Assembly (NCBI GenBank): GCA_029688905.1
Contig: JARULB010000004.1
Coordinates: forward strand, 186,001-250,000
From: Balneolales bacterium ANBcel1
Lineage (GTDB): Bacteria > Bacteroidota > Rhodothermia > Balneolales > Natronogracilivirgulaceae
Reading direction: 5' to 3'
DNA length: 64,000 nucleotides
Shown piece by piece: positions 21,421-58,700 of this stretch. The notes beneath the pieces were generated by a model. It ran no database searches. It worked only from the letters and a program-made list of their open reading frames with translations, and was not told the DNA's origin. Each line of letters opens with the position of its first letter. The stretch's first letter is position 1. The translations under genes and the position numbers were made by a program.

Positions 21421-21631
21421 TAGACAGGCACACATTCAGTTCTTTGGGATGACTGGGTAGCGGTAACGAACGAGCCCCTAAGCGGTTCAACAGAACCCCG
21501 CCCGATTTCCCCAAATGGAAAATACAAATCTAAATATATTGGTTCTCATGAATTACCGGAGAAAAGTCGGTGTCATAGCCTGACTGCAAGGCCTCTTCAC
21601 CGAATCCGCAACGTTACACCAGACATTACCC

Positions 21632-22483: not shown

Positions 22484-22527
22484 AAGGAAAGAACCGATGA
22501 CAATCCACCATTCATGTTTCTCAATGG

Positions 22528-24378
22528 TCAATAATTCCTGATAGTACCATAAACTGAATAAGACTCCTCCTCAATATTGTACAATGGACGAAGGGTATAC
22601 GTTTTCCCACCATTATTAAGTGTAAAAGAGTTATCACCTTCCACCTTCATATTTCCAACTATTTCTTCTATCGTCCCCTTTAATATGAGCTCCGTATCTG
22701 TTTCGAAAGCAAGCAGTGACGGACCGTAAAACAGGGCTACTACATTAGTATCGTCAGGTGTGGATTTCGCATAAAAATCATAATCAAATACAAGCTTTAC
22801 TTCATCACTATCATCCCAAACACGGTTTATTTCAAGGTAGGACAGTGGTTCAATTTTCTTTTCCTGCAACTCGCCGTTAATAAACACTTCAACACTTTTT
22901 GCCCAGGACGGAATAAATAGATTCATGCCAAATTCCGTTTGCTCCCCGGCTGTTACTTGAAAAATAACCGAGGAATCTACGGGAAATTCTCCTTGCTGAC
23001 TCACAGTGATACCTTTTTCTTTCCAGGTCACTTGTGAAGGCACATAAAGATTAACCCAAAGGTCCGCATCATTATAAAAGTAAATACCTTTATTGAGCGA
23101 GGCATAAGCTTCGATGCTTGAACCGTTACAACAGTGGAAATCATTTTCCTTCAAAAATATTTTCTCTCTGGGCGACCCCAGTGGCAGGTGATAAACTACC
23201 TTTCCGGTTCTGGCGCTCTGTGCGGCAAGTACCGCATTATAAAAAGTATTCATGTACGCATCGGCATATCGTGGATCTGTGGTCCAGGAAAAAAGTTTGG
23301 CACTCAGTTTCTGGGTGTTATGCGTCACACAAGTTTCCCCGATCTCTCTTGTAAAGGTATTGCTTAACTGCCCGGGCACCCCCCAGTGTTCGGCTGTGAG
23401 TGATGTGGGTGTTACGGCATTTGGACGCGGCCCGCTGCTCGTACCATTCACATACGTATGATCGTTCATGAGCATTTCCCAGAAATTCATGGCGGCGTCA
23501 TGGTACTTTTTCTCGCCGGTAATCGCATAACGCTCGGTAAATCCGTTAATCAGCACGACATGTGTGTTTGAATGCAGACCGTTCAGAATATTGGTGTTTT
23601 CCGCGAGTGGCACGGCGAACCAGTCGCGATCGAACAGTTTGGCCAGATCCAGATGGGCGGAATCTCCCGAAATGTTATACAATCTGTACAGCACTTCGTT
23701 CATGGCTCCGGCTTCATTCGCCGGGTTGGCTCCAACGCTGTACAAAACGCCCTCAATTGTCGATTCGTCCAGTTTTGACATGCGCTGATCCACATAACCG
23801 GCCATATCCACAACCATATCATACGCCAATGTGTTGCCCAGACGCGTATACACATCCAGCAGTCCTTGCATAATCTTGTGATAGGTATAGTATGGCGCCC
23901 AAACGCCTCCGAATTCTGCTTCCAGTCGATCGAAGTCTTCTTCCGGAAAGGCACTGAGGTACCCGTTTCCAAATATTTGCTGACATTCGTGCAGTTCCGC
24001 AACCATGTATTCGATGCGTTCGGCCAGGTTGCTGTCCGCGTGACTTTCAACGATCATTGCAGCAGCGGATACATAATGTCCGACAAAATGCCCCTTCAGT
24101 CCTATATCCGGTGATTCCCAACCCTCCAGCGGTTTTGCATCAGAGGACAATCCAGCGTTTACCCTGAAATTGTGAAGCAGCCGGTCGGGGTCGAGAGATG
24201 AGATATATTGCTTGTTCAACTTTTCCCGCTCCTCTATCCAGGCGGGTTTTAGTGTGACATCCGCGTTGGAAAAAGCATGGACTTTTCCAATCTGTTCATT
24301 TTCAGCAAAATGCTGTCCGGAAACACTGAATTGAACAAACAATAAATAGATCGTGGTATATAAGAAAACTTTTATCAT
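22528..24378 (-). CDS. GH127 beta-L-arabinofuranosidase-like glycosidase (DUF1680)
   Basis: GH127 enzymes release beta-L-arabinofuranose with a cysteine nucleophile held in a zinc site. The equivalents are present: Glu348 and Cys350 in 'GETCVTHN', and Cys416/Cys417 in 'DFHCCNGSS', matching the Glu-x-Cys and Cys-Cys pattern of the Bifidobacterium HypBA1 enzyme. The 616 residues begin with a signal peptide ('YTTIYLLFVQFSVSGQ') and end in a beta-sandwich. The coding DNA is visibly richer in A and T than its neighbours, which suggests later acquisition. Stop codons of this gene and the kinase face each other 44 bases apart. Confidence 0.9.
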   Translation of the reverse strand: MIKVFLYTTIYLLFVQFSVSGQHFAENEQIGKVHAFSNADVTLKPAWIEEREKLNKQYISSLDPDRLLHNFRVNAGLSSDAKPLEGWESPDIGLKGHFVGHYVSAAAMIVESHADSNLAERIEYMVAELHECQQIFGNGYLSAFPEEDFDRLEAEFGGVWAPYYTYHKIMQGLLDVYTRLGNTLAYDMVVDMAGYVDQRMSKLDESTIEGVLYSVGANPANEAGAMNEVLYRLYNISGDSAHLDLAKLFDRDWFAVPLAENTNILNGLHSNTHVVLINGFTERYAITGEKKYHDAAMNFWEMLMNDHTYVNGTSSGPRPNAVTPTSLTAEHWGVPGQLSNTFTREIGETCVTHNTQKLSAKLFSWTTDPRYADAYMNTFYNAVLAAQSARTGKVVYHLPLGSPREKIFLKENDFHCCNGSSIEAYASLNKGIYFYNDADLWVNLYVPSQVTWKEKGITVSQQGEFPVDSSVIFQVTAGEQTEFGMNLFIPSWAKSVEVFINGELQEKKIEPLSYLEINRVWDDSDEVKLVFDYDFYAKSTPDDTNVVALFYGPSLLAFETDTELILKGTIEEIVGNMKVEGDNSFTLNNGGKTYTLRPLYNIEEESYSVYGTIRNY

Positions 24379-24605
24379 TTACTTGCTGAGTGATTTGTCG
24401 CGATTTCCATTTTCCTAAAGTATAACTCTGAATGCGCGCTTTGAACAGCTTATAGATTCTGGGCGTTCCTGACAAAAATTGACCTATAAAGAATTCCGTA
24501 ATCTAGATAAATGCGGTCTTTCGGACTATTTTTTATATTATTTTCATGCAATTATTTTATAAAAAATCTGTCTTATCGGACGGTTCAATATTTCATATTT
24601 AAACT

Positions 24606-25541
24606 ATGCGCAACAAATATATCTGCGGTGGAGTCATCATCCTACTGACCTTCCTCGTAAACACACAAGCCCCGGCACAGAAATATTCCAAAAGCTGGAC
24701 CGACATCAATTACGCCGGAAGCTCCGAGAGCTGGCACAATCTGGATATCTATCTGCCCGCTATCGAAAAAGAAGCCTATCCGGTTGTGATCTACATATAC
24801 GGGAGCGCCTGGTATGCAAATAATGCCAAGGGGGCGGATATGGAGACCATCGGCAAGGCGCTGCTGGATGCGGGGTTTGCCGTGGTGACGCCGAACCATC
24901 GCGCCAGTACCGACGCCACATTCCCCGCCCAGGTACACGATATCAAGGCAGTTATCCGCTATGTCAGGGCCAATGCGGACAAGCACCGACTGGACACCGC
25001 CTTTGTCGGAATTTCGGGCAGTTCTTCCGGCGGACATCTTGCCGCCATGGCCGGCACAACCCGGTTCACAGAGCAGTTTACCGTTGGCAATGAAACGGTG
25101 GACATCGAAGGAAGTCTGGGCGATTTCACCCATGCCTCCAGCTCGGTCGATGCCGTGGTCAACTGGTTTGGACCTGTCCATTTCCCCGTCACAAATACCT
25201 GCGGCAGCGAAATCGATCGCGACGCGGCAAATTCACCGGAGTCCACCCTCATCGGAGAGTCCATCCTGGATAACGAAGACCTCGGCGCGTTGATCAGCCC
25301 GATCACCTATATCGACGCGGGCGATCCACCCTTTTTGAACATACATGGAGATGAGGACAGGATCGTGCCCTTGTGCCAAAGCGAGTTGCTGCACGAAGCT
25401 CTTGTGGAGTCCGGTGTGTCCAGCCGGCTGGTCATCGCAGAAGGCGGCGGACACGGTCCCGGTGTGCATGTCGATGAGTACCTGGAGATGATGGTCGACT
25501 TTTTCTTGAAGCAGGCCACGAAGCAGGGTGGCAGTAAATGA
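24606..25541 (+). CDS. Alpha/beta hydrolase, BD-FAE/carboxylesterase type, secreted
   Basis: A 311-residue esterase with an N-terminal signal peptide ('VIILLTFLVNTQAPAQ'). The fold motifs are 'YPVVIYIYGSAWYANNAKG' (oxyanion region), 'VGISGSSSGGHLAAM' with the nucleophile Ser in GxSxG context, 'PPFLNIHGDEDRIVPLCQSELLHEAL' with the Asp, and 'GGGHGP' with the His. Relatives act on short-chain esters such as acetylated or feruloylated sugars. Divergent placement from the GH127 gene suggests, but does not prove, joint work on plant or algal glycans. Confidence 0.88.
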   Translation: MRNKYICGGVIILLTFLVNTQAPAQKYSKSWTDINYAGSSESWHNLDIYLPAIEKEAYPVVIYIYGSAWYANNAKGADMETIGKALLDAGFAVVTPNHRASTDATFPAQVHDIKAVIRYVRANADKHRLDTAFVGISGSSSGGHLAAMAGTTRFTEQFTVGNETVDIEGSLGDFTHASSSVDAVVNWFGPVHFPVTNTCGSEIDRDAANSPESTLIGESILDNEDLGALISPITYIDAGDPPFLNIHGDEDRIVPLCQSELLHEALVESGVSSRLVIAEGGGHGPGVHVDEYLEMMVDFFLKQATKQGGSK

Positions 25542-25598
25542 TCGCCGGCAATTGCTATAATTCATAGACGTTGTTAGTATTTGTGACGCTCATTTCCA

Positions 25599-27323
25599 AT
25601 GTTCATGATTGCCATGGCCCTCCGTTTTTTCCTGATTATTACTGTTATCATTTTCGTGACCGCCTGCAGTTCCGATAGGCCTGCGGGCGATGATCCGGCA
25701 CTCGACGAAACCGCCACCGGAGCAGAGGCGATCGGCTCCACTGCATCCCCGGAGAATCCGTCGGATGAGCCGTTCCAGGATGATTTTTCTTCCAGGGAAC
25801 AGGAGTCATGGGAACAGGCCGGCCATACCGCCGGTCAGGATCCCGGCAACGAATCCGGTTCCCGGGAAAGCTTCGACTCCTGGGACGATGTGGACCCGCA
25901 ACCAATCCCCTGTGGCGATGCGGCCGGCGAGGGCTTCGACCAGGATGACCCCTCCGGAGCGCTGCAACCCTGCGGCGATCAGCCCGTCACTCAGTCGCCG
26001 GTCGAAGTATCACCTTCGGAGCTGACCTCGGAGAGATCGTCACCCAACGCTACCGGCGCAGACCCACACAGGTCATCCGCAACAAACCGACCGGCCGGCA
26101 CTTCGGAAAACCGCTCCATGCACAGGAACCACACGCCCGGATCCGGTGCAACAACACGCACCGGCCTCGATGTGCTAATTGAACGTGATTTCGACCTGCT
26201 GCAAGGCAAACGGGTCGGACTGATTACAAACGCCACCGGTGTTGATCAAAACCTGACCTCTGTCGTTGACCTGTTCCACCATGCCGATGCGGTTGACCTC
26301 GTCGCGCTTTTCGGTCCCGAACACGGGGTGCGCGGCGATTACGATGCCGGCGCTTATGTTGAAAGCTATACGGATGAGCGGACCGGCCTGCCGGTTTTTT
26401 CGCTGTATGGCCCCACCCGCAAACCCACCGGGGACATGCTTTCGGGCATTGATGTGCTCGTCTTCGATATCCAGGATATCGGGGTGCGCTCCTACACCTA
26501 CATCAGCACCATGGGCCTGTCGATGGCGGCGGCGGCACAGCACGATATCGCATATGTGGTGCTTGACCGCCCCAATCCGCTGGGCGGTGAGCGGGTGGAA
26601 GGAAACATCGCACGACACGATCACCTTTCATTCGTGAGCCCGTTCCCGATTCCGTATGTCCATAGCCTTACCGTCGGCGAGCTGGCCGGAATGCTCAACG
26701 GCGAGGGAATGCTGGAGAACGGAGTACAGGTGGATCTGTCGGTTGTCCCGATGGAGAACTGGCGCCGGGAAATGCTGTTCGGAGACACCGGGCTGCATTG
26801 GGTGCCCACATCCCCGCACATTCCGCGGGCCGGCTCCCCCCTGTTTTATGTGATGACCGGCATCACCGGGGAACTGCAGCAACTCTCCGAAGGGGTCGGA
26901 TATACGTTACCGTTCGAGGTATTCGGAGCAGAGTGGATTGACGGGGTGAGGTTCGCGGAACGACTCAACGAGCGGGGCCTCCCGGGCCTGCGGTTCCGTC
27001 CGGTTTCGTGGCGTCCTTTTTATGGACGTGATGAAGGCAAGCGCCTGGAAGGTGTGCAAATTCATGTCAGTGACGGAAGGCGGGCGGATCTGATGGCGGC
27101 GGCGTTTCACCTGCTGGAAGTGCATCATGAGCTCTACCCGGAAAAGAATCCGTTTGAGCGGGCCGGAGAAGATCGCCTGCGCATGTTCGACCTGGTGGCC
27201 GGATCTCCGGAAATCCGGAAGCGGTTCATGGAGTCGATGCGCTACGAATATATTCGCGGATATCTGGAAAAAGACAGGGAGGCGTTCCGGGAGCGGTCGA
27301 AAGAATACCGGCTGTACGAATAA
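25599..27323 (+). CDS. namZ: NamZ-type exo-beta-N-acetylmuramidase (DUF1343), lipoprotein
   Basis: DUF1343 proteins include NamZ, which releases MurNAc from the non-reducing end of peptidoglycan fragments. The domain starts near residue 188: 'VLIERDFDLLQGKRVGLITNATGVD', then 'LVALFGPEHGVRG', 'DVLVFDIQDIGVRSYTYISTM', 'YVVLDRPNPLGGERVEGN' and 'YTLPFEVFGAEWIDG'. A lipoprotein signal ('IIFVTAC') is followed by about 160 residues of Asp/Ser/Pro-rich, low-complexity linker with two 'PCGD' motifs. It probably sits on the outer membrane or in the periplasm. It converges with the nagZ gene, and the kinase gene lies about 3 kb away. Confidence 0.9.
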   Translation: MFMIAMALRFFLIITVIIFVTACSSDRPAGDDPALDETATGAEAIGSTASPENPSDEPFQDDFSSREQESWEQAGHTAGQDPGNESGSRESFDSWDDVDPQPIPCGDAAGEGFDQDDPSGALQPCGDQPVTQSPVEVSPSELTSERSSPNATGADPHRSSATNRPAGTSENRSMHRNHTPGSGATTRTGLDVLIERDFDLLQGKRVGLITNATGVDQNLTSVVDLFHHADAVDLVALFGPEHGVRGDYDAGAYVESYTDERTGLPVFSLYGPTRKPTGDMLSGIDVLVFDIQDIGVRSYTYISTMGLSMAAAAQHDIAYVVLDRPNPLGGERVEGNIARHDHLSFVSPFPIPYVHSLTVGELAGMLNGEGMLENGVQVDLSVVPMENWRREMLFGDTGLHWVPTSPHIPRAGSPLFYVMTGITGELQQLSEGVGYTLPFEVFGAEWIDGVRFAERLNERGLPGLRFRPVSWRPFYGRDEGKRLEGVQIHVSDGRRADLMAAAFHLLEVHHELYPEKNPFERAGEDRLRMFDLVAGSPEIRKRFMESMRYEYIRGYLEKDREAFRERSKEYRLYE

Positions 27324-27389
27324 TCTAGACATCCGCAGCCGCAGGGAAGCGTGCGCATTATCAGTCCACGCCCCGTTTCGGCAGCCGTT

Positions 27390-28655
27390 TCACACCATAT
27401 CTGCAACCCGGGTTTCCGTCAGCTGCCTCTTCAGGCGCAAAATCCGTGCGGCCGATCGGTCAATCTGTGCTTCGCTGATATGTCCCCGGTCGAGCATCTC
27501 CCTCACCACCCCGAAAAACCGGGCGGCAACCTGCTCATCATACACCATATTATTTCCAAACAGCAGGATGTCAACTCCGGCCTGCAATGCCCGGCGAATC
27601 ACCTCCTCTTCACCGTAGTGATCGGAAATCGCCTTCATCTGCAGGTCGTCGCTCACAATTACTCCGTCGAAGCCGAGTTCATCCCGCAGCATCCCCTGCA
27701 GGATAGCCGGCGACAATGTGGCGGGGTGGTCCGGATCCAGTCCGCGGTGAAACACATGCGTCGTCATGACCATATCACACTGCCCGTTCTGCAAAAGCCG
27801 GCGGTAAGGTATCAGCTCAGCCGCCTGCCAGGTATCGGTGACATCGGTCAGGCCCAGGTGGGTATCATCCCGTGAACTGCCATGACCCGGAAAGTGCTTG
27901 AGCACGGCTCCCACACCCGCCTCCCGGTGTCCGCGCACATACGCTTCGGCGTGCCGTGCCACGATCTCCGGATCATCCGAAAAGCAGCGATTCCGTCCAT
28001 AAATCGCTTTGTTCTCCTTGTTCAGAGCCAGGTCGACACACGGAGCAAAATTGAGGTTGCAGCCGTGCTGTCGCAATACCTCCGCAATTTCGGCGGCGTG
28101 GGAACGGGTCAGCGACGGGTCGTTTTGCGTGCCCAGCTCCCGGTGCGAAAGTGTCTCCGGAAAACCGTATTCGGGCCGCAGACGGTTGACCGTCCCTCCC
28201 TCCTGGTCGATCGCGATAAAAAGCGGAATTGCGGCTTCGGCCGACAGTCCGGCGGTGAGCTCCGAAAGCTGCCGGGGCGAGCGGATATTGCGGCCGGTTG
28301 TCCCGGACTGCACATCATAATCAAACAAAATGACTCCACCGAGGTGATATTCCCGGATGTCGCGCAGGATGACACGTACGGGGTTTGTGGAGTCTGCGGA
28401 TGCTGCCTGATGCGTCGAACCCGGACGCCTGCCCGGATCCGCATCATCGGTGAAGCCCGGGTGTTCCGAGGGTGCGGATGGGGCATTGGCCTGTGTCGGA
28501 GCTGCAGCATCCGTTGCAGATGATGATTTTTCGGCACCGGTTTCCGCGCCGGGAATTACCGTACCCCGAAATCCGACCATCAGCATCTGGCCGATTCTCT
28601 GATCCTGCGTGAGATCTGCAACGTCGGGTACCGGACTGGAGGGTGTTGGAGACAT
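27390..28655 (-). CDS. nagZ: Beta-N-acetylhexosaminidase NagZ (GH3), with disordered insert
   Basis: NagZ removes N-acetylglucosamine from GlcNAc-anhydroMurNAc products in the cytoplasm. Typical motifs are 'IDQEGGTVNRLRP', 'KHFPGHG' (253-259) with the general acid/base dyad Asp264/His266, and 'VSDDLQM' with the nucleophile Asp near 336. There is no signal peptide, in agreement with a cytoplasmic site. An Ala/Ser/Pro/Asp-rich insert of about 58 residues (35-92) splits the first conserved segment 'MLMVGFRG' from 'LGGVILF'. I take the ATG at 28655, with 'DLTQDQRIGQMLMVGF' as the family start; an ATG at 28703 is also possible. Confidence 0.92.
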   Translation of the reverse strand: MSPTPSSPVPDVADLTQDQRIGQMLMVGFRGTVIPGAETGAEKSSSATDAAAPTQANAPSAPSEHPGFTDDADPGRRPGSTHQAASADSTNPVRVILRDIREYHLGGVILFDYDVQSGTTGRNIRSPRQLSELTAGLSAEAAIPLFIAIDQEGGTVNRLRPEYGFPETLSHRELGTQNDPSLTRSHAAEIAEVLRQHGCNLNFAPCVDLALNKENKAIYGRNRCFSDDPEIVARHAEAYVRGHREAGVGAVLKHFPGHGSSRDDTHLGLTDVTDTWQAAELIPYRRLLQNGQCDMVMTTHVFHRGLDPDHPATLSPAILQGMLRDELGFDGVIVSDDLQMKAISDHYGEEEVIRRALQAGVDILLFGNNMVYDEQVAARFFGVVREMLDRGHISEAQIDRSAARILRLKRQLTETRVADMV

Positions 28656-28948
28656 GTTATTTTGGTTTATCAATCCCTGGTAATTCTTGAGCTTCTGCAA
28701 CATTTATAGCCGTGCCGGGCAGCTACGTTAATAAACCTGCTGATCAAGCGCCAGGAGAGTCACCTTCAACAGCGGCGGTTTCTACATTTTCTTGCGGTTT
28801 CCGGTGGTTATGATTACTATGAATAAGAGAGTACACATTAGCATATTATTGCAACAGGAACAACGACAAAGGGGCTACAGGGGACAGGCTCACCGACATT
28901 TTTTGACCCCGCTGATTTATTCCATTCAACCCAAAATCAGAGACCATC

Positions 28949-37076: not shown

Positions 37077-38954
37077 TCATTGATCACTTTCCTTCTTCCC
37101 GAAATCCTTGTCCAGCGGGATGAACCAGGCGGCGATAAACGCCGGAATCGTCGCGATCATCACCCAGATAAAGAAATTGGGATAACCAATCAGCTCCTGA
37201 ATCCAGCCACTGAACATGCCCGGCAACATCATCCCCAGCGCCATGAAACCGGTGGTGATGGCGAAGTGTGACGTTTTGTGCTCACCCTCCGACACGTAGA
37301 TCATGAACAGCATGTAGGCGGTAAATCCGAAGCCGTATCCGAATTGTTCGAGCGCGATCGACGCACTGATGACCACCAGGCTGTCGGGTAACATCTGCGA
37401 GAGATAGATATAGACCAGATTCGGAATGTTCATCGCAAATACCATCGGCCAAAGCCAGAATTTGAGGCCGTGACGCGCCGCCATGATCCCCCCCAGAATC
37501 CCGCCGGCGGTGAGGGCCAGCAGCCCGACCGTCCCGTAGGCAAGTCCAAGCTGACCGGTCGTCAGCGCCAGTCCGCCCAGTTCCTGCGGATCCAGCAAAA
37601 ACGGCGATGCCAGCCGCACAATCTGGGCCTCGGCAAACCGGTAGAGCAACAAAAAGGCGAGAATAGCGACAATTCGGTCCTTGCGGAAGAAGAGCACGAA
37701 AGTCTTGAAGAATTCACCGAAGATACTTTGTCCGGGATCGCGCGGTGCCGGACGGTCGGCCGCCGGATATGGCAGGATAAACCGGTGGTAGAAAAAGAAA
37801 ACCACAAACATGCCGGCCAGGAAGAAAAATGTGATGGACCAGGCGAGCGGGATGTTGCCCGACCGAACCTGAAATTCGGCGGAGCTTGCAAAATCGAGCT
37901 GATCCTCGATCTGGATCACCGCCATCGCCGGCACATTCCAGTTCTCGCGTGTGAACCGGAAATAGCTCCCCTCCACCAGGGAGATGCTTTTGTCTCCGCG
38001 TACCCGTCCGAAGTTGAGCACCACCTCTTCTCCAGGATCCGGCGGACCCGAAAGATGAAAATAGACCACTCCGACGTTTCCGGTGTACTCAGTGTCGATA
38101 TCCATCTCATCCGGCCCAAACCGGGTAGCGATAAACCCTTCCAACGGATGGATGAGCGTCCGCCTGAACCATCCCGGTTCCTCCTCCGCTTCGGTCTCCT
38201 GCAGCGCAAGGTCCTGTTCCAGCGCCGGATTGAACCCCTGATCCAGGTTCCACTCACGGGCCAGGGAGACGATCGAATCCACCTCACTGCGCAACCGGTT
38301 TTCGGTGCTGATTTCCAGCTCTGCCGGTTCGGCGATAATCCGCAATGCACCCTCCCGCTCCGTAACGCGCATCTCCTCCGGGTGCGTAATTTCGGTAAGA
38401 CCGACCTCCGGGTTCGATCGCGCGCGAATATCCACATCATCCAGACCGGTCACACTTTCGACATATCCGGCGAGAATCACCAGCAAACCCTGGCCGGAAA
38501 TCATCGCGATGCGGTAAAACGTGCTCCGTACCCCCACAAACCACGCCTGTTCGTGCTTGCTGAGGCCGAGCATGTAAAGCCCGTCGGCGGCGATGTCGTG
38601 CGTCGCCGAGCTGAACGCCATCAGCCAGAAAAAGACCAGGGTCCATTGAAGGAACCCGGGAAGCGGGGTGGTCAGCGCCACCCCCGCCATGCCCGCGCCG
38701 ATGACCAACTGCATGACGATGATCCACCACCGTTTGGTTTTCAGCAGATCCACCAGCGGACTCCAGAGCGGCTTGATCACCCACGGCAGGTAAAGCCAGC
38801 TGGTGTACAACGCGATTTCGGTGTTGGATACGCCCAGCCGGTTGTACATCACCACCGTCACGAACATGACGATCACGTACGGCACTCCCTGGGTATAATA
38901 GAGCGTAGGGATCCAGGCCCATGGGTTGCGGTAGGTCGGTTTATCCTGCGTCAT
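37077..38954 (-). CDS. ampG: AmpG-type muropeptide permease (PAT/MFS family) with inserted domain
   Basis: AmpG imports GlcNAc-anhydroMurNAc muropeptides for recycling. The N-terminal half has family motifs: 'TQGVPYVIVMFVTVVMYNRLGVSNTEIALYTSWLYLPWVIKPLWSPLVDLLKTKRWW' and 'DIAADGLYMLGLSKHEQAWFVGVRSTFYRIA'. The C-terminal half resumes near 371 with 'WSITFFFLAGMFVVFFFYHRFI'. The protein has 625 residues, while relatives usually have 430-500. The extra length is one soluble block (about 166-370) with a beta-sandwich-like signature 'FRFTRENWNVPAMAVIQIEDQ'. A second truncated copy of its 5' end occurs at 43440-43766. Confidence 0.88.
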   Translation of the reverse strand: MTQDKPTYRNPWAWIPTLYYTQGVPYVIVMFVTVVMYNRLGVSNTEIALYTSWLYLPWVIKPLWSPLVDLLKTKRWWIIVMQLVIGAGMAGVALTTPLPGFLQWTLVFFWLMAFSSATHDIAADGLYMLGLSKHEQAWFVGVRSTFYRIAMISGQGLLVILAGYVESVTGLDDVDIRARSNPEVGLTEITHPEEMRVTEREGALRIIAEPAELEISTENRLRSEVDSIVSLAREWNLDQGFNPALEQDLALQETEAEEEPGWFRRTLIHPLEGFIATRFGPDEMDIDTEYTGNVGVVYFHLSGPPDPGEEVVLNFGRVRGDKSISLVEGSYFRFTRENWNVPAMAVIQIEDQLDFASSAEFQVRSGNIPLAWSITFFFLAGMFVVFFFYHRFILPYPAADRPAPRDPGQSIFGEFFKTFVLFFRKDRIVAILAFLLLYRFAEAQIVRLASPFLLDPQELGGLALTTGQLGLAYGTVGLLALTAGGILGGIMAARHGLKFWLWPMVFAMNIPNLVYIYLSQMLPDSLVVISASIALEQFGYGFGFTAYMLFMIYVSEGEHKTSHFAITTGFMALGMMLPGMFSGWIQELIGYPNFFIWVMIATIPAFIAAWFIPLDKDFGKKESDQ

Positions 38955-38978
38955 AAGCCGGATTCAGGGAGATTGACA
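38709..38978. repeat. Direct repeat copy 1: 5' end of the AmpG-like gene
   Basis: About 270 bases covering codons 1-85 and some upstream bases, repeated in the same orientation at 43521-43790. The copies align at a constant offset of 4812 with only about ten differences seen by eye and no gaps. Confidence 0.9.
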
Positions 38979-39284
38979 GTGCGAATGGAATCAGATCAAA
39001 ACGTGTAAGACGGGGTAACGGGAGCATGTCCCGGGCCAAACGATGTCAATCTAATAAATCTTTCTGTAAATTCACTACTTGCTCTATTAACACAAGACAT
39101 TTAAAATTGCGCCGGTCAGAATACCGTAAAAAATTGGCACAAAGTGTTCCCGCCCTCTCCAGGAATTTGCTGTGACCTGATGTATATCTGGCACGGGATT
39201 TTTCGATCAACATTCATAATCTTGTACTTTTTAGGTACTGAATTAAACGGAATTGCCAGTTATTTTCTATTCGGAAAGTTTTCC
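38955..39284. other. Intergenic, AT-rich; promoter of the AmpG-like gene
   Basis: About 330 bases between the AmpG-like start and the stop codon of the GLUG gene. The first 24 bases belong to the duplicated sequence. The rest is AT-rich and contains no recognised gene, RNA or terminator. Confidence 0.5.
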
Positions 39285-40904
39285 TTATTTGATCAGCATC
39301 ATCTGCCGGGTTTGAACAAAATCACCGGTAGTCAAGTGGTACAGATATACTCCGCCGGCCAGATCAGAGGCATCGAAATGAGCGGTGTGCGATCCTGCCG
39401 GCATGGTACGGTCAATCAGGGTGGCCACCCGGCGGCCCATCACATCGTAGACAACCAGCGAAACTTGACGACCTTCCAGTAGGTCATAACGAATCACCGT
39501 AACCGGATTAAACGGGTTGGGGTAATTCTGATACAACGCCACCTTCTGTGGCCGGTCAGAATCAGGCATTGCAAAAGTGGGCTCTTTACCTTCTCCGACG
39601 AGCGGTACGATCAGCGTATCGCTGCGGTTCGGGGCATCGTGCACGATGTGCATTTCGGCCTCATAGCTATCCGCGCTTTCCGGATGGAAGGTAATCGCCA
39701 CGTCCTGACTGCTGCCGGCTTCCAGTGAAAAAGAAGAAAACTCATTGTCTATGGCAAACGGGCCGGAATCCGCTCCAGCGAGATACACCTCACCACTCAA
39801 CGAGGTATTCCCGGTATTCCGGATGGCCACTTCCCCGATACCGGAACTGTCCGTGCTAACCCGGCCAAAATCACGCTTCGCGGTATCGATCCGGATGATC
39901 GACACCAGAGGCTGGTCCACGGCATTATCAGGATCCTGCCATTTCAAGACCGGGTGGCCCCCGGTCAATTGCCAGGTATTATCGAAATCAAGTTTATACA
40001 TGTGGATAAAAGCATCTTGGCCGGTCATCTGTTCGGTGATCAGGCCGGTAATGTCTGCGTCTGTTTCAGACCCGATCCCATCATTTTGACCTGTTGTTTC
40101 GATCCCCCAATAACTCTCACTGATACTTGCCATAAAGGGATCACCAAACAGTCCACCGGTATCTTCACCTCCAACAACCTCCCCCATAGCAAATGATTGA
40201 TATGTACCTCTCATCATGCCCCACAAGGGCCAAACTACCATTGTGCCTCCGATGAGGCCTCCAACCCTGTCACTACCCATCACAAAAACATCTGTGTACG
40301 ACGACATCACCCAGTACTCGTGTCCTTCAGGATTTCCATCAATAGCAAGTGTACCAATCAACCCTCCAACCGTATTATCCCCGGTAACCTTTCCGACAAC
40401 GTAACAGGATTTAATCACTGATATAGAATTATGCCCCACCAGTCCTCCCACATGTTTATCGCCTGTCACATTGATATCTTCAAGTCCAAGATTTACAATG
40501 ACGGCATTGCCTGTTGACCCGAACAAACCCACTTCATCTTCCTTCCCACGGTTAATAGTTAGCCCGGTGATGACATGCCCGCCGCCATCGAAATGGAAGT
40601 CGATAAATTGTAAAGGCTTAAACCCTTTGCCACCATTCCAGTCCGCTGTTTCAGAGGCATCTATATCATTCATGAGTACAAAATGAGCAGCCGGGTACTC
40701 ATCAATCTTTTGTAGCTGCTCTATGGTCTCAATCTGGTATGGATTATCCCCTGTACCTGAACCAGCGGCAAACTCGGCGTTGGCCTGGGCGGAGGAAAGC
40801 AATATGCCCAGTATCATGGCTGACAGACGTTTATTGCCGCAAATATTTGTGACATCGCCATATATAAGGCCAATAGCTTTACATAACTGATATATCTTGT
40901 TCAT
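39285..40904 (-). CDS. Secreted GLUG-repeat protein with type IX sorting domain
   Basis: A 539-residue surface protein. A long signal region (first 44 residues, alternative ATG at 40817) leads to 'GSGTGDNPYQIETIEQLQKID', the usual opening of GLUG proteins. Several GLUG units follow ('VGGLVGHNSISVIKSCYVVGKVTGDNTVGGLIG', about 140-290). A choice-of-anchor D/Ig-like domain (about 340-440) precedes the type IX sorting domain 'LYQNYPNPFNPVTVIRYDLLEG...TRQMMLIK'. Relatives often act in adhesion or matrix binding. It is followed, 59 bases upstream on the same strand, by a second gene of the same design. Confidence 0.88.
   Translation of the reverse strand: MNKIYQLCKAIGLIYGDVTNICGNKRLSAMILGILLSSAQANAEFAAGSGTGDNPYQIETIEQLQKIDEYPAAHFVLMNDIDASETADWNGGKGFKPLQFIDFHFDGGGHVITGLTINRGKEDEVGLFGSTGNAVIVNLGLEDINVTGDKHVGGLVGHNSISVIKSCYVVGKVTGDNTVGGLIGTLAIDGNPEGHEYWVMSSYTDVFVMGSDRVGGLIGGTMVVWPLWGMMRGTYQSFAMGEVVGGEDTGGLFGDPFMASISESYWGIETTGQNDGIGSETDADITGLITEQMTGQDAFIHMYKLDFDNTWQLTGGHPVLKWQDPDNAVDQPLVSIIRIDTAKRDFGRVSTDSSGIGEVAIRNTGNTSLSGEVYLAGADSGPFAIDNEFSSFSLEAGSSQDVAITFHPESADSYEAEMHIVHDAPNRSDTLIVPLVGEGKEPTFAMPDSDRPQKVALYQNYPNPFNPVTVIRYDLLEGRQVSLVVYDVMGRRVATLIDRTMPAGSHTAHFDASDLAGGVYLYHLTTGDFVQTRQMMLIK
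39357..39501. repeat. 145-bp identical block, copy 1 (sorting domain)
   Basis: This stretch encodes part of the type IX sorting domain of the GLUG gene at 39285-40904. It matches 41036-41180 base for base, while the flanking sequence differs. The identity is at DNA level, including third codon positions. Confidence 0.95.
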
Positions 40905-40963
40905 GATTTAACAATTTTGGTGTACAGTAGAGGCTTTTTTATTTACTATTCGGAAAAACTTCC

Positions 40964-42778
40964 TTATTTAACCACGGTCATCTGCCGGGTCTTGCTAAAT
41001 TCCGGGGTCGTTAACCGGTAGATATATATACCACTGGCCAGATCAGAGGCATCGAAATGAGCGGTGTGCGATCCTGCCGGCATGGTACGGTCAATCAGGG
41101 TGGCCACCCGGCGGCCCATCACATCGTAGACAACCAGCGAAACTTGACGACCTTCCAGTAGGTCATAACGAATCACCGTAGTCGAATTAAACGGGTTGGG
41201 ATAGTTTTGGTGCAATATCGGTTGATCCGGGAGTGAGCTGACTTGTTCTGCTGTTGTTGGTTCGTGTCCAGAGCCTCTCATGTAAATTTCCACAGGGCTG
41301 TCAATATTTGGGGCATCGTGTTCTACATAAAGTGTGCCTTCATGGATATTTGCACTTTCAGGCCGGAAAATCACATGAATAACATCTTCGCTTTGAGGAG
41401 CCAGCATGACTGACTCCCCGCCATCTCTGAGCTCAAAGCCATCCCCCGATACCGATACTTCAATCTGTATTGGAATCGTACCACTGTTCTCTATGGGTAA
41501 TGTACGAGTGCGGGATTTTCCAACATCCTCACCCAAAAAATTAATGTACTTCCTGGGAAACCGTAAAATGGCTGCATCGGGAGCTTCTACGGTATCGTTG
41601 GGTTTCTGCCACTGAAACACAGGATAGCCCTCCGTCAGCTGCCAGGTTTCATCAAAATCGAGTTCAAACATATGGATATAAGCCTGTTCGCCCGTCATGT
41701 CGGCAGTCAGAAGGCCACGGGCATTGTGACGTATGTCGCCTCCTTGGAAGGGTAATGCCGGATTTGCGGAGTTTGGCCCTACTCCTTCGGATTGACTGCT
41801 TGTTTCCGTATTCCAATAACTCAAATCCAGAATACTGCTATTATCACCAATCAAGCCCGCCGTATTTTCTTCGCCACTTACTTCACCTAATGCATAGGCT
41901 TCCAATACCCAACTGCTCCCAGCCGGGACAACCGGCAGACTATTGTAACCAAGTAATCCCCCCACCCGGTTTTTTCCGATAACATTTCCTGTGGCATATA
42001 CAGCTTGTAATGTATGGTTACTTCTCCCCGACAACCCTCCAACATTCTCTGAGCCCTGAACATCGCCGGTGGCATATGACTTTTCAATCGTTCCCAAATT
42101 ATCTCCGGCCAATCCGCCCACTTGATCATTACCGGTGACCTGCCCTGTTGCATATGACTTTTCTGTTAATCCCCCATTGGTACCCATGAGCCCGCCCACA
42201 TAGTTATATCCTTCAACGTTCACCGCTGCATGGGCTCTGATAACTATTGCTGAACTGTAACCCATCAATCCCCCCACATTATTTTCACCTGTGACCATCC
42301 CGGTTACCGAAACATCGTGTACTTCGGCTTGCGGTAATTGATGTTGTCCCAGAAACCCGATTAGTCCCCCTACATTTCGGTGACCGGTAATTTCAACATC
42401 ACGCAGATGCGTGTTTGTGATCGTTGCCCCTCCGGCCGCTCCAAATAAACCCACCTGACTGGAATCGTTGCGTTGTATGTATAATCCGGTAATAACAAAC
42501 CCCTGGCCATCAAAAAAACCTTCAAACCGGGACGAATTTAATCGCCCGATCGGCTCAAATCCCTCGCCGCCGTTCCAGTCCGCGGTCTCCGACGCGTCGA
42601 TATCGGCCGTCTGAATGAAATGTTTGTCCAGGTACTCCTGCTCGCCGATGGCCTGAAGCTGCTCCAATGTGGCCACCTGATACGGATTTGCTTCGCTGCC
42701 GTCGCCGTCGGTGAACTGGGCTTTCAGAAGTACCGGGGTTAGCAGCATAATCATTGTGATGGGAATCCATTGCTTCAT
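40964..42778 (-). CDS. Secreted GLUG-repeat protein with type IX sorting domain (second copy)
   Basis: A 604-residue relative of the downstream gene. It has a cleavable signal ('ITMIMLLTPVLLKAQF'), the opening 'GDGSEANPYQVATLEQLQAIG', and at least seven GLUG repeats (about 100-340; e.g. 'GGLMGTNGGLTEKSYATGQVTGNDQ'). A choice-of-anchor D domain (about 405-505, 'FRPESANIHEGTLYVEHDAPN') and a type IX sorting domain end the protein. The two genes share short near-identical stretches in the N-terminal part ('DIDASETADWNGG') and an identical DNA block in the sorting domain. Confidence 0.88.
   Translation of the reverse strand: MKQWIPITMIMLLTPVLLKAQFTDGDGSEANPYQVATLEQLQAIGEQEYLDKHFIQTADIDASETADWNGGEGFEPIGRLNSSRFEGFFDGQGFVITGLYIQRNDSSQVGLFGAAGGATITNTHLRDVEITGHRNVGGLIGFLGQHQLPQAEVHDVSVTGMVTGENNVGGLMGYSSAIVIRAHAAVNVEGYNYVGGLMGTNGGLTEKSYATGQVTGNDQVGGLAGDNLGTIEKSYATGDVQGSENVGGLSGRSNHTLQAVYATGNVIGKNRVGGLLGYNSLPVVPAGSSWVLEAYALGEVSGEENTAGLIGDNSSILDLSYWNTETSSQSEGVGPNSANPALPFQGGDIRHNARGLLTADMTGEQAYIHMFELDFDETWQLTEGYPVFQWQKPNDTVEAPDAAILRFPRKYINFLGEDVGKSRTRTLPIENSGTIPIQIEVSVSGDGFELRDGGESVMLAPQSEDVIHVIFRPESANIHEGTLYVEHDAPNIDSPVEIYMRGSGHEPTTAEQVSSLPDQPILHQNYPNPFNSTTVIRYDLLEGRQVSLVVYDVMGRRVATLIDRTMPAGSHTAHFDASDLASGIYIYRLTTPEFSKTRQMTVVK
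41036..41180. repeat. 145-bp identical block, copy 2 (sorting domain)
   Basis: Partner of 39357-39501, identical over its whole length, in the sorting domain of the second GLUG gene. Confidence 0.95.
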
Positions 42779-43439
42779 ACGTCCCTCCGTTGTTGATTCA
42801 TTGATGTAAAAAAGTTATTCGACCAATTCGTGCTATTTATTTTTAAGAGAATGAAGGTGTCAGATCCTTTCAAAAAAACTTCCTGGAAAGTGACTATTAA
42901 CAACTTTTCAAAACTTGATACTAATAGAACAAGTCGATTTCGCTATTCGCACTCAAAAGCAAAGTTTTGTGTTGCAATGTTATAGGGAAACATCTTTTAT
43001 TCATTGTTCTCCTCCTGTGATGTATGTAGTGCTTCGGTTGGCCGGATAAATTACCGCCGGCTTTATTCCGGATTGCGATACCCCTTCCGTTATATTTTAG
43101 TCAAATCAATCTGATCATTTCCCGCAATTTTCAGGTACGTTATGCGGAGATGTTCAGATAACGTGTAGAAATGAAATACTGTTTTTGATTCGTAATTGTG
43201 GGGAACAGGCAATCACAACGCTATTGCTCATGCGTTGCAATCCATGAGTCAATTCTGCCTTGATGTGGGTTTCAGCATCCATCCATGGTGTTTCCAAATA
43301 AGTAATTGGAATGCTCTCTAACTTGTCATCTAAAAAGAATTATGTTTTACTTTTGTAATGGCAAGTAAATATCATCGAACTTGAGTACCTGTAATCAGTT
43401 TCTCTATAACCGTATCGGTTGATGGATGGCTATTTCTGG
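42779..43439. other. Intergenic, AT-rich, with one inverted repeat
   Basis: About 660 bases between the GLUG gene and the truncated AmpG-like copy, clearly lower in GC than the flanks. The only structure noted is ACGTTAT/ATAACGT with a 13-base spacer at 43138-43164. No protein family, RNA gene or transposase remnant was recognised. Confidence 0.5.
43138..43164. repeat. Inverted repeat ACGTTAT-N13-ATAACGT
   Basis: Perfect 7-base arms in AT-rich noncoding DNA. It could be an operator or the end of a small mobile sequence. It is too short for a full integron attC site and no second copy was found by eye. Confidence 0.5.
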
Positions 43440-43766
43440 CTACGACCCATCACCGGACAGCAGTTGTGTATCTTCTAATTCGATCACAAAAACGATAAAC
43501 AGGCCGGCGAGAATCACCAGCTGCATGACGATGATCCACCACCGTTTGGTTTTCAGCAGATCCACCAGCGGACTCCAGAGCGGCTTGATCACCCACGGCA
43601 GATAGAGCCAGCTGGTGTACAACGCGATTTCGGTGTTGGAAACGCCCAGCCGGTTGTACATCACCACCGTCACAAACATGACGATCACGTACGGAACTCC
43701 CTGGGTAAAATAGAGCGTCGGGATCCAGGCCCATGGGTTGCGGTAGGTCGGTTTGTACTGCGTCAT
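43440..43766 (-). pseudogene. Truncated second copy of the AmpG-like permease
   Basis: A 108-residue frame whose first 85 residues match the AmpG-like protein at 37077-38954 with very few changes. It then joins 'LAGLFIVFVIELEDTQ', which resembles the helix 'LAGMFVVFFFYH' at 379-390 of the full protein, and stops. The insert and ten other helices are missing, so it cannot be a working carrier. An internal deletion after duplication of the whole gene, or of a relative without the insert, would give this structure. It lies alone between AT-rich regions. Confidence 0.85.
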
Positions 43767-43790
43767 AAGCCGGATTCTGGGAGATTTACA
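43521..43790. repeat. Direct repeat copy 2: 5' end of the AmpG-like gene
   Basis: Partner of 38709-38978, same orientation, offset 4812. The similarity continues about 24 bases upstream of the start codon and then ends abruptly. Confidence 0.9.
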
Positions 43791-44166
43791 AATTCGGGAA
43801 GTTCCAGCCGTTACGGCCGATACGGTTCAGAGACGGAAAAAGAGAGCCTGCGAAGCTCAGGTCACAGCAAACGAACCACTTCTGCGCTCTGTGGTCGGAA
43901 GATACTATTTTATTAACATTATTTTCTTCGTCTGCACATACTCCCCATTCTCAACCCTTCGCAAGCTTACTTTATCTTTGCTTTCCCGGCGAAACAACAT
44001 CCCGGCTCCTAATTACCTTTCGGGTAGCATGTAAGCCGGCGGCGGTGCATATTGTGGATGGATGCCTGCGGAACATTTCCATCCTCATGATCACTCCGCA
44101 GGTATTCACTTTTCTGTTAATTCAGTTACACCCCATTTTGACGCGAGCTATGCCGATCACTCCACC
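43767..44166. other. Intergenic, no recognised feature
   Basis: About 400 bases between divergent genes. The first 24 bases belong to the AmpG-like repeat. Nothing else was recognised; the promoter of the beta-propeller lipoprotein is expected here. Confidence 0.45.
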
Positions 44167-45021
44167 ATGACACGTATTTCCCTGATTTGCACCGTTTCTA
44201 TCCTGCTGCTTCTCTCCTCCTGTTCGGAACCGGATTCCGATAAAACGGACGAGGTATCATCAGCCGTGGACGCGCCCGTTGCCGGTACCCCGCAAGTTGT
44301 CGCATCGGGTGACGGATTGCTGTTCATGGCTCCGATCTGGTCACCCGACGGATCCCTCATCGCGTTCACATCCGGGCAGTACCGCGGACTCTGGGTCGTA
44401 CGTCCCGACGGATCAGACCTTGCACAAATCACGGATGCCGAGTCCGCCGGATACCGTTTCCAATGGGCCCCGGACAACACCGCCATTACCGCACGAATTG
44501 CGCGCTATGACGGTCCGGAACGCTATTTTGCCATCGCATCTTATCATATCGAAACGGGCAGCAAGTCCATTCTGGAGGATTTTTCCAGGGCCTCCATCGA
44601 TCCGCCCGCGAAACCTGTCGAACTGCCGCGAGATTTCGGTGAACAAACGGCGCTTAACGCCACCTTCTCTCCCGACAGCACAAAAATCGCCTTCCAGCTC
44701 ATGGGTGATACTGTTTATGTGATGACGGCGGATCAACCGAAATCTCCACCCGACACATACAGACAACTGGGTCAGGGCGAACAACCGGTCTGGATGCCGG
44801 ACGGTGAACACATCATCGTAACCGTATCCGGCGACGACGGCCATCACATCACCGAATCCGACCTCTACGCGGTTCATTCAGAAAGCGGAGAACGGATACT
44901 GCTCACCGGCCATACCGACCTGATCGCCCTGCAACCGGACATTTCACCCGACGGTCGGCACCTTGTCTTTTCCTGCTACAACAGCGGCAATATTTACATT
45001 ATGGAGCTCTTGTTACCCTGA
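44167..45021 (+). CDS. TolB/WD40-like beta-propeller lipoprotein
   Basis: A 284-residue lipoprotein (signal 'CTVSILLLLSSCSEPD') with repeated PD40-type blades: 'APIWSPDGSLIAFTSGQYRGLWVVRPDGSDLAQIT', 'FQWAPDNTAITARIARYDG', 'ATFSPDSTKIAFQLMGDTVYVM', 'PDISPDGRHLVFSCYNSGNIYIM'. Such domains commonly bind proteins or peptides; no catalytic part is attached. I chose the ATG at 44167 because it gives the lipoprotein signal; the frame is open 35 codons further. It stands alone, 204 bases before the aminotransferase gene. Confidence 0.85.
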   Translation: MTRISLICTVSILLLLSSCSEPDSDKTDEVSSAVDAPVAGTPQVVASGDGLLFMAPIWSPDGSLIAFTSGQYRGLWVVRPDGSDLAQITDAESAGYRFQWAPDNTAITARIARYDGPERYFAIASYHIETGSKSILEDFSRASIDPPAKPVELPRDFGEQTALNATFSPDSTKIAFQLMGDTVYVMTADQPKSPPDTYRQLGQGEQPVWMPDGEHIIVTVSGDDGHHITESDLYAVHSESGERILLTGHTDLIALQPDISPDGRHLVFSCYNSGNIYIMELLLP

Positions 45022-45225: not shown

Positions 45226-46407
45226 ATGACACAGAACATAATCACCGACGCAAGGCTTGGCCGATTCCGGGACCAGTTTCCGCACACCGAACGGGGAATC
45301 TGTTACCTCAACCACGCTGCCCAGTCGCCGCTGGCCAAAGTCACCATCGACGCCATCAACGACCACCTCGGTGAGCGGCACAACGGAATGATGATGCCGT
45401 TCGCCAAAGACATCAAAATCATCGAACAGTGCCGCGAACGTATCTGTGAACTGATAAATGCCGGCGATACGCGACATATCGCCTTCATCGGCAACACCTC
45501 CGAGGGGCTGAACCGGGTTACCTCCGGACTCGACTGGCAGCCCGGCGACGAGATCATCCTCAACACCCTGGAGTTTCCATCAAACGTCTATCCATACCGA
45601 AAGCTGGAAAAACAGGGCGTGAAGTGTGTTTTTGTGGATGCGGATGACGGCACGGTACCGGTCAGCCGGCTTGAGGCGGCAATCACCCCGCGTACCCGGA
45701 TGATCGCGATCAGCGCCGTGCAGTTCCTGAGCGGCTACCGGGCGGATATGGAGGCGATCAGCGCGCTTTGTCGTCGTCACGGGCTCTGGTATGTGGTGGA
45801 TGGGATCCAGGCGGCGGGATCCCTGCCGGTTGATGTACAGGCGTGGGGCGTGGACGCGTTTGCCACCGGCGGACTCAAATGGCTCATGGCGCCGACCGGT
45901 ATCGGCTTTCTCTACCTCTCGGAACGCCTCAATGAGCAGCTGCGAACTCCCGATCCCGGATGGCTTTCGGTGGATGAGCCATGGGATCTGTTTCGCACCG
46001 ATCAACCCCTGCGCTCCGATGCCGGCCGTTTTGAGGGCGGGGTCGTCAACATCCCCGGTGTTTACGGCCTCAACGCTTCCATCGGCCTGCTGCTGGAAAC
46101 CGGTATTGAGCACATATTCGATCGTATCCTCCAGTGCACCAGCCAGCTTCGATCCGCGTTGGAGGAGTCGGGGCTGAAGGCGTTCACCACCTCCGACCCA
46201 AACCACGCTTCCGGCATTCTCACCTTCCACCTCCCGGAAACCCGATCACGCACAGACGAAATTCCGGGGCTCGAAGAGGTGTTCCGTACAAAGAAGGTCT
46301 TCGTTTCAATACGTGACAACAAACTCCGTTTCGCACCGCACGGCTACAACACCCCGGAGGAAATCGACATTGCGGTGCAGCAGGTCCGGGCTATCCTGAT
46401 GGATTAA
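45226..46407 (+). CDS. Class V aminotransferase (cysteine desulfurase/isopenicillin epimerase-like)
   Basis: A PLP enzyme of 393 residues. The Schiff-base lysine is Lys218 in 'FATGGLKWLMAPTGIGFLYLSE'. The Asp that pairs with the pyridine nitrogen is in 'HGLWYVVDGIQAAGSLPVDVQ', and the opening 'ICYLNHAAQSPLAKVTIDAINDH' is normal. The loop with a catalytic Cys of true IscS/SufS desulfurases is not evident, so the substrate remains open. It precedes the YihY/BrkB gene by 39 bases; the two may be cotranscribed. Confidence 0.88.
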   Translation: MTQNIITDARLGRFRDQFPHTERGICYLNHAAQSPLAKVTIDAINDHLGERHNGMMMPFAKDIKIIEQCRERICELINAGDTRHIAFIGNTSEGLNRVTSGLDWQPGDEIILNTLEFPSNVYPYRKLEKQGVKCVFVDADDGTVPVSRLEAAITPRTRMIAISAVQFLSGYRADMEAISALCRRHGLWYVVDGIQAAGSLPVDVQAWGVDAFATGGLKWLMAPTGIGFLYLSERLNEQLRTPDPGWLSVDEPWDLFRTDQPLRSDAGRFEGGVVNIPGVYGLNASIGLLLETGIEHIFDRILQCTSQLRSALEESGLKAFTTSDPNHASGILTFHLPETRSRTDEIPGLEEVFRTKKVFVSIRDNKLRFAPHGYNTPEEIDIAVQQVRAILMD

Positions 46408-55742: not shown

Positions 55743-58700
55743 ATGACGAACTCGCTACGAATACTTCTGACCATCATTTTTGTCGTTTCTTCCTCCGCTC
55801 TGTCGCCACTGCAAGCACAGTTCGCAGGTGGGAACGGATCTGCAGAAGCCCCCTGGCAGATTGAAAGTCCGACCCAACTGCTCAATATCGACGATCACCT
55901 GGACGGATATTTTATCCAGACCGGCCACATAGACATGGCCGGCATCAGTTTCACAGCCATCGGAAGCCCCTCGAACCCGTTCACCGGGTATTACGACGGA
56001 GCACATTATGAGATCCGCAACATGAGCATTTCCGAACCGGAAATGAACGAGCAGGCACTCTTCAGGGCGGCCGAAGAAGCCGTATTCCGCAATATGATCT
56101 TCACTGATGCTTCCGTGGAAGGAAGCAGAAGAGTTGGCATCCTGGTCGGGGTTGCCGAGGGCATAATCTTCGAAAACATTTCGGTAAGCGGTGAGGTGAT
56201 TTCCCACGGAAGTACAGGAATGAATTGGTCAGAGGCCGGTGGCATGGCCGGCTCGATTCGAGGTGGCATCGTGCGTCATTGTATTGCGGATGTGGTAGTC
56301 ACAGGACACAGAACAGTTGGCGGTTTGATCGGATCCTTCACCAATTCTGCTGAAATATACCAATCGGCTTCCTACGGCCAGATTTCGGGGCAAGGATCAA
56401 ATAGTGGTGGTCTTATCGGTCTTATGGGCGGCACCGGTGTCATCACCGACAGCTACAGCCATGCCAACGTGGAAGGTGATAATACCGTCGGCGGACTGAT
56501 TGGCAATTTTTCTGCACAAGGTGGACGCATCCAGAACTGCCTGAGCACCGGACGGGTGACCGGCACCGGCGACGACGTGGGCGGGCTACTGGGCTCGGTC
56601 TTCTCGGCAACACGCATGAACATCAGCCACTGTTTCTGGAATGCTTCCGCCTCCGATATCACAGCAAGCGCGGGCGGAGCGGGCGTGAAAGGCCTGTCCA
56701 TGACAGAACTGATGCAGCGCGAAACCTACAACGGCTTCAATTTCCACTCCCTCTGGCAGATCGATGATGGCAACTCCTACCCCTCATTCCAGGACTTGTC
56801 CGATTACGAGATCCCCGAACCGGCTTCCATCGATGAGCTTCAGGGCGATGGCACAGCCGATGAGCCCTGGTTGATATCCTCGCCCTCCGAGCTGCTGGCC
56901 ATAGCGGATAATGTCCACGGACACTACCGACTGACCGCCGATATTGACCTGGAGTCCAGTGCCATCTGGAATTATGGGCGGGGATGGACGCCTCTGGGGG
57001 GCATCAATGAAGGGGAGCACTTCACGGGTGTTCTGGACGGTGACGGCCACCGCATAACCGGCATGGTGATCAACGCCCCCATGCGTGATCACACCGGGAT
57101 CATCCGTCATGCTGAAGATGCCGTTATCCATGACCTCATACTGGAGCATCATTATGTGATCGGCTCGGATTACACCGGCGGAATTATCGGAGAGGGCGAA
57201 TCGGTGGTCATGGAAAATATTCAGCTGAATGGTGATATACGATCAGCAGGCGGCAGATGGTCTCAGGCCGGTGGTATTGCAGGCAGGGCAGATAACAGCG
57301 TGTTTCGCCATAATCTTGCTCATGTAACCGTTACAGGGACGCGAAGAGTGGGTGGGCTTATAGGCGACTTTATCGACTCGGAGATGTATCATTCGGCCTC
57401 ATACGGTCATGTGTGGGCCGATGTAAGTAATGCAGGTGGGCTCATCGGTAATTCCAGCGGCGCAGGTGTGATCACCGACTGCTACAGCCATGCCGACGTG
57501 GAAGGCGAAAGACATGTTGGCGGACTGATCGGCAATTTCCAAAGTGGACGCATCCAGAACTGCCTGAGCACCGGCCGGGTAACCGGCACCGGTGATGATG
57601 TGGGCGGACTTCTGGGCTCGGTCTTCTCGGCAACACGCATGAACATCAGCCACTGTTACTGGGACGAAACCACTACCGGCCAAAGTGAAAGCGCGGGCGG
57701 AGAGGGTGTGAAAGGCCTTTCCACATCGGAGCTGATGCAGCGCGAAACCTACGACGGCTTCAATTTCCACTCCCTCTGGCAGATCAATGATGGCAGTTCC
57801 TACCCCTCTTTCCAGGCCCTGTCCGAATACGAGATTCCCGAACCGGCTTCCACCGATGATCTCCGAGGCTCTGGCAACAGCGACTCGCCCTGGCTCATTT
57901 CCTCGCCCTCTGAGCTGCTGGCCATGGCGGATAATGTCCACGGCCACTACCGACTGACCGCCGATATTGACCTGGAGTCCAGTGCCATCTGGAATTATGG
58001 GCGGGGATGGACGCCTCTGGCCGGCACCGATGAAGGCGAGCGCTTCACGGGTGTGCTGGACGGTGACGGCCACCGCATCACCGGCATGGTGATCAACGCC
58101 CCCATGCGTGATCACACCGGAATCATCCGTCATGCTGAAGACGCCGTTATCCGGGACCTCATCCTGGACAATCATTATGTAATCGGATCGGACTACATCG
58201 GCGGGATTATCGGAGAGGGCGAATCGGTGGTCATGGAAAATATTCAGATGAATGGTGATATACGGTCAGCAGGCGGCAGATGGTCTCAGGCCGGTGGTAT
58301 TGCTGGCAAGGTAGATAACAGCGTGTTTCGCCATAATCTTGCTCATGTAACCGTTACCGGGACACGAAGAGTGGGCGGGCTTATAGGCGACTTTATCGAC
58401 TCAGAGATATATCAGTCGGCCTCATACGGACATGTGTGGGCCGATGTAGGTAATGCAGGCGGCCTCATCGGTCATTCGGGCGGCACCAGTGTAGTCGGCG
58501 ACAGCTACAGTCATGCCAGCGTAGAAGGTGAAAATCACGTTGGCGGCCTGATTGGCAATTTTACCTGGGGAGACATCCTGAATACCTACAGCATCGGGCA
58601 GGTGACCGGTAGCGGCGATGATGTCGGCGGGCTGATCGGTTCTGTATTTTCCGCATCTCCTGAAAAAAGTTATTGGAACACCGAAACTTCGGGACAGATG

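Follow-up and report, generated by a model that had tools for sequence, protein, structure and literature searches.

Some islands that integrate in the 5' end of a gene supply a replacement 5' end, as SXT does in prfC. Variable segments bordered by direct repeats are frequent in bacteria; they make up 10-18% of all variable segments in three species, E. coli, S. aureus, and S. pyogenes, and have been proposed to originate by illegitimate recombination (PMC2884548). Homology-facilitated illegitimate recombination is a known route to such insertions, as cited in PMC2884548, and merodiploid formation is a known route to a gene plus a second copy (PMC3784515).

We analyzed a window of 64,000 nucleotides that spans bases 186001-250000 of contig C4; the genome measures 3.32 Mb and is 98% complete. 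Within it, two genes for GLUG surface proteins lie between direct repeats of the 5' end of an ampG-like gene (Table 1). We refer to the repeat at the intact gene as copy A, to the outer repeat as copy B, and to the sequences upstream of them as leaders A and B.

Table 1. Positions of the features discussed, numbered from the first base of the window
Feature	Position	Strand	Basis
NamZ	25599-27320		window neighborhood
NagZ-like hydrolase	27393-28703		window neighborhood
Intact ampG-like MFS transporter, 625 aa (copy A)	37077..38954	-	BT1, MFS_1, TIGR00901
Direct repeat copy A: ampG 5' end plus 24-nt leader	38688..38978	-	repeat search, genome DNA search
Native leader of ampG, conserved in the empty same-genus locus	38955..39121	-	117/163 identical to L088
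15-bp inverted repeat, left member, TTTGCTGTGACCTGA	39166..39180	+	genome search
GLUG1, 539 aa: Glug repeat, subthreshold choice-of-anchor-type Ig-like region, T9SS sorting tail	39285..40904	-	domain profiles
GLUG2, 604 aa: Glug repeats, T9SS sorting tail	40964..42778	-	domain profiles
AT-rich noncoding stretch, 37.7% GC	42779..43499	.	composition, homology search
Truncated ampG relic (copy B): codons 1-83, 225-nt in-frame deletion, codons 158-163, unrelated sequence, stop	43440..43766	-	alignment to ampG
Direct repeat copy B	43500..43790	-	repeat search, genome DNA search
15-bp inverted repeat, right member	43857..43871	-	genome search
PD40 beta-propeller lipoprotein-like gene, native outer neighbor; likely true start near 44168	44062..45021	+	PF07676; adjoins ampG in L088
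Class V aminotransferase, native neighbor	45226..46407	+	gene order in relatives

Repeats and gene content of the locus

A repeat search placed the two 291-nt copies on the same strand, 4812 bp apart and 93.8% identical. A genome-wide DNA search returned exactly these two sites (E values of 3.5e-231 and 3.2e-125). Across codons 1-83, copies A and B differ at 10 of 249 nt (96.0% identity); nearly all of the remaining mismatches fall in the final codons, beyond the true break of copy B. The longest stretch without a mismatch between the copies, 81 nt, amply suffices for RecA. The original prediction, which extended the repeat over codons 1-85 and the upstream bases at about 96% identity, was right in spacing and orientation, and its identity estimate holds for codons 1-83. 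The ampG register is lost from codon 84-86, however, and the shared upstream bases, though present, amount to only ~24 nt before the ATG. We rejected an assembly artifact as the source of the repeat, because the copies differ at 18 sites and sit on a 394-kb contig.

Both GLUG genes were confirmed between the copies, as predicted. Their products each combine Glug repeats with a Por_Secre_tail/TIGR04183 domain, scoring 38.0 and 43.7 bits against a cutoff of 23, which places both among proteins with a T9SS type A sorting domain. The 3' end region of GLUG2 is 87% identical to that of GLUG1 over 277 nt. Beyond its first ~50 nt, the AT-rich stretch has no detectable homologue in its own genome or the family genomes, and no family genome contains the sequence at 42825-43499. 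The cassette has a G+C content of 38-50%, versus 56-59% in the flanking genes; this is a weak sign of foreign origin, as low G+C is common in noncoding DNA.

A second GLUG cluster lies near a contig end elsewhere in the genome (L131, 3299-6686 of G000:C10). One of its genes matches GLUG2 at the 5' end and GLUG1 at the 3' end, with 83-86% identity, and the next GLUG gene is frame-broken. No ampG piece was found in this cluster. Given these paralogues, the GLUG genes may be home-grown rather than foreign. The window also encodes a 1139-aa GLUG-like protein with a sorting-tail-like C terminus (55743-59159), whose internal repeats are spaced 1023-1029 nt apart and are 72-86% identical.

The product of the intact gene scores 159 bits against TIGR00901 (AmpG family), below the family cutoff of 350, and we therefore describe it as an AmpG-like transporter. 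The TIGR00901 match is split by an insert of ~190 aa (codons ~171-364), which is missing in sister-family orthologues of about 430 aa. With NamZ and the NagZ-like hydrolase, the gene forms a peptidoglycan-recycling neighborhood (19681-28703 and 37077-38954). NamZ is directly convergent with ampG in relatives; in the window the two are separated by ~10 kb holding ArsR-like and ACR3/SBF-type genes and a beta-lactamase-family hydrolase.

The outer ampG fragment

The reading frame of copy B is 108 aa long and departs from ampG after codon 83. Past codons 84-86 it is out of the ampG register, reading LVILAGLFIVFVIELED... to a stop at 43440. At the inner break of copy B, 18 nt match ampG codons 158-163 exactly and continue the reading frame of codon 83. 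The motif GCTGGT would be common to both parent sites if codon 83 had started with C, as it does in L088, the same-genus relative, and in eight of nine other relatives. This scar is a 225-nt in-frame deletion across microhomology; by joining codon 83 to codons 158-163, it indicates that copy B was formerly longer. A search of 42830-43503 found no further ampG parts. By eye, another deletion might link copy B with codon 380 (LAGLFIVF versus LAGMFVVF), a candidate that we rejected as indistinguishable from chance.

Six changes in codons 1-83 are specific to copy B, and nonsynonymous change among them is confined to codon 4, which is variable among relatives. Codon 20 deviates from the family in copy A, not in copy B. 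Without constraint, ~75% of changes would be expected to be nonsynonymous (P of 0.016-0.038, depending on how codon 4 is counted, from six changes only). Since its changes are mostly synonymous, copy B probably spent most of its divergence within a working gene, and it is probably a recent remnant of a functional ampG allele with ~4% sequence difference.

The locus in relatives and the two leaders

The nearest relatives in our comparison set are Balneolales/Balneolaceae genomes, several of them metagenome assembled. In L088 (G001:C118, SLLW01000295.1), the only same-genus genome compared, the gene order is YihY, aminotransferase, PD40, leader, and ampG codons 1-94; GLUG genes are absent between PD40 and ampG. 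The aminotransferase is followed by ampG in L028, L065, and L027, and YihY is followed by ampG in L031, again without GLUG genes. The cassette is thus missing from the same conserved position in all five, the pattern of an insertion flanked by a gene fragment. A second copy of the ampG 5' end is absent from every family genome, and a donor genome carrying this cassette was not found.

We compared both leaders with that of L088. Leader A matches it at 117 of 163 positions with a score of 116, versus a maximum of -16 for shuffled sequences. Beyond position -24, leader B scores -44 against L088 (shuffled mean, -38) and is no better than shuffled sequence when aligned to either L088 or leader A. 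A scan for Bacteroidetes-type promoters (TTTG-N17-23-TANNTTTG) was uninformative for both leaders.

The leader type distinguishes two histories. Excision by recombination between the repeats would leave leader B in front of ampG, yet L088 has a leader of the A type. By this comparison, the empty locus in L088 is not an excision product and looks like the state before insertion. Gain of the cassette in the lineage of the window is the best reading, since loss from relatives by repeat recombination would have left leader B, which the sole relative with an alignable leader lacks. Loss in every relative instead of gain is formally conceivable.

The L088 contig stops at ampG codon 94, and its end is unusual. 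Over ampG nt 141-282 (L088 3381-3523) it differs from the window at 2 positions, versus 15 over nt 1-140 (89% identical; P of 0.0003), a pattern suggestive of interspecies recombination or of a chimeric end of a metagenome-assembled contig. The empty-site argument uses the L088 leader and PD40, which lie ahead of this suspicious ~140-nt end.

Origin of the insert and alternative readings

Probably, a lineage-specific, duplicative event brought in two surface genes, through recombination that was either homologous or illegitimate, and the spare ampG later decayed. The ancestral family order would have been SPS, YihY, aminotransferase, (PD40), and ampG. In the lineage of the window, ~4.7 kb would have been inserted into this order, separating PD40 from the native ampG leader. 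The insert would have brought the two T9SS-secreted GLUG genes, and its outer end would have carried part of a different ampG allele. The most likely route would be recombination with DNA of a related strain, with ampG as the homologous anchor; a rearranged sister chromosome recombining at ampG could be the source of the same event. The joining may have been a merodiploid or a homology-facilitated illegitimate event. An event of the latter kind would have one homologous and one nonhomologous join; both joins of copy B, at -24 and at codon 83, are sharp. The redundant outer ampG would then have decayed by deletion.

Two other sources were rejected. Campbell-type integration of a circle predicts the native leader at the outer copy, but the L088-like leader precedes the intact copy, and a further step would have to be assumed. 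For a plasmid or phage source, a single plasmid and a single unannotated phage record showed ampG homology, and this was only generic.

The GLUG genes could instead have arrived between two resident copies left by an old tandem ampG duplication, with the outer copy decaying later. The traces of a longer ampG in copy B and its mostly synonymous changes fit this order of events as well. However, no relative has two ampG copies, and the conserved leader is missing from copy B upstream of -24, so we consider a resident duplication unlikely.

A 15-bp inverted pair brackets the GLUG insert. The sequence TTTGCTGTGACCTGA occurs at only two sites in the 3.32-Mb genome, allowing up to one mismatch, and both are perfect and inverted. 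When both flanks were simulated 300 times with a Markov model, no trial gave a pair reaching 15 bp (longest, 11), a result that somewhat overstates the weight of the pair, as it was spotted after looking at the flanks. The pair may mark the insert ends or be a template-switch scar. It would also suit a mobile cassette that lacks a transposase, ends in 15-bp terminal inverted repeats, and is moved in trans. Against such a cassette, no direct repeat lies beside the 15-mers as a target-site duplication, no transposase was recognized by eye among the window open reading frames, and the genome holds no further copies. The 19 other family genomes contain two single sites, with one mismatch each, and no pairs. 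Movement in trans would also leave the ampG fragment unexplained, and we regard it as very unlikely.

The repeats themselves could support excision. Joining copy B to copy A in silico at three test crossover points gave one open 625-codon frame each time. The predicted deletion outcome, removal of 4812 bp with the ampG frame restored, thus stands, and excision is in principle a physically possible, one-way loss rather than a regulated switch. The product would carry PD40, leader B, and ampG. The original prediction went further, proposing a cost-free on/off loss of two surface proteins. Deletion between direct repeats runs one way, and nothing here would bring the cassette back; we found no reversal route encoded between or beside the copies. 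Nor is excision plainly cost-free, because the intact gene would lose leader A, which is conserved with L088.

In a contingency locus of this kind, RecA would delete the cassette in part of the population and give surface-protein-negative cells with ampG intact. The long direct repeats, their 81-nt identical run, and the restoration of ampG by any crossover speak for such a locus. However, the cells could not switch back and would lose the native leader, and the empty locus in L088 carries leader A rather than leader B. Copy B, moreover, is a relic in decay that has itself suffered an internal deletion, and the ~4% divergence between the copies argues against frequent exchange between them. 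We therefore hold a contingency function to be highly improbable. Nothing indicates a purposeful switch, and the locus is an ordinary genome rearrangement. The most remote reading is an undescribed nonautonomous surface-gene cassette, with a target-gene 5' fragment as homology arm and 15-bp inverted ends, that enters and leaves beside ampG by recombination between strains.

Comparison with described systems

On the favored reading of acquisition beside a conserved gene, the locus records one step in the gain of secreted GLUG surface proteins, with the spare-copy scar still visible. More generally, a switch-like repeat can be distinguished from an insertion scar by the leader type in cassette-free relatives. 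If excision does occur in populations, it would be a simple path to surface-protein loss.

As with SXT in prfC, a partial copy of the target gene lies at the far end of the insert. Unlike SXT, the insert has no recognized integrase or short att core, and the intact gene keeps its native leader. The locus resembles the variable segments of PMC2884548 in that it spans a few kb, is specific to a strain or species, sits between conserved genes, and has direct repeats at its flanks. The repeats of those segments are mostly under 30 bp, whereas here the repeat is a 291-nt gene fragment, and the empty state in relatives does not look like a deletion product. Mobile insertion cassettes are likewise reported to hold passenger genes between short inverted repeats without a transposase (for example, PMC3913671); unlike them, this insert has no transposase family match, no target-site duplication, and a single copy. 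Transformation merodiploids (PMC3784515) share with this locus an intact gene plus a second copy from partly homologous incoming DNA, with the spare free to change. Those merodiploids span ~100-900 kb and were made in the laboratory, whereas here the second copy is a short relic.
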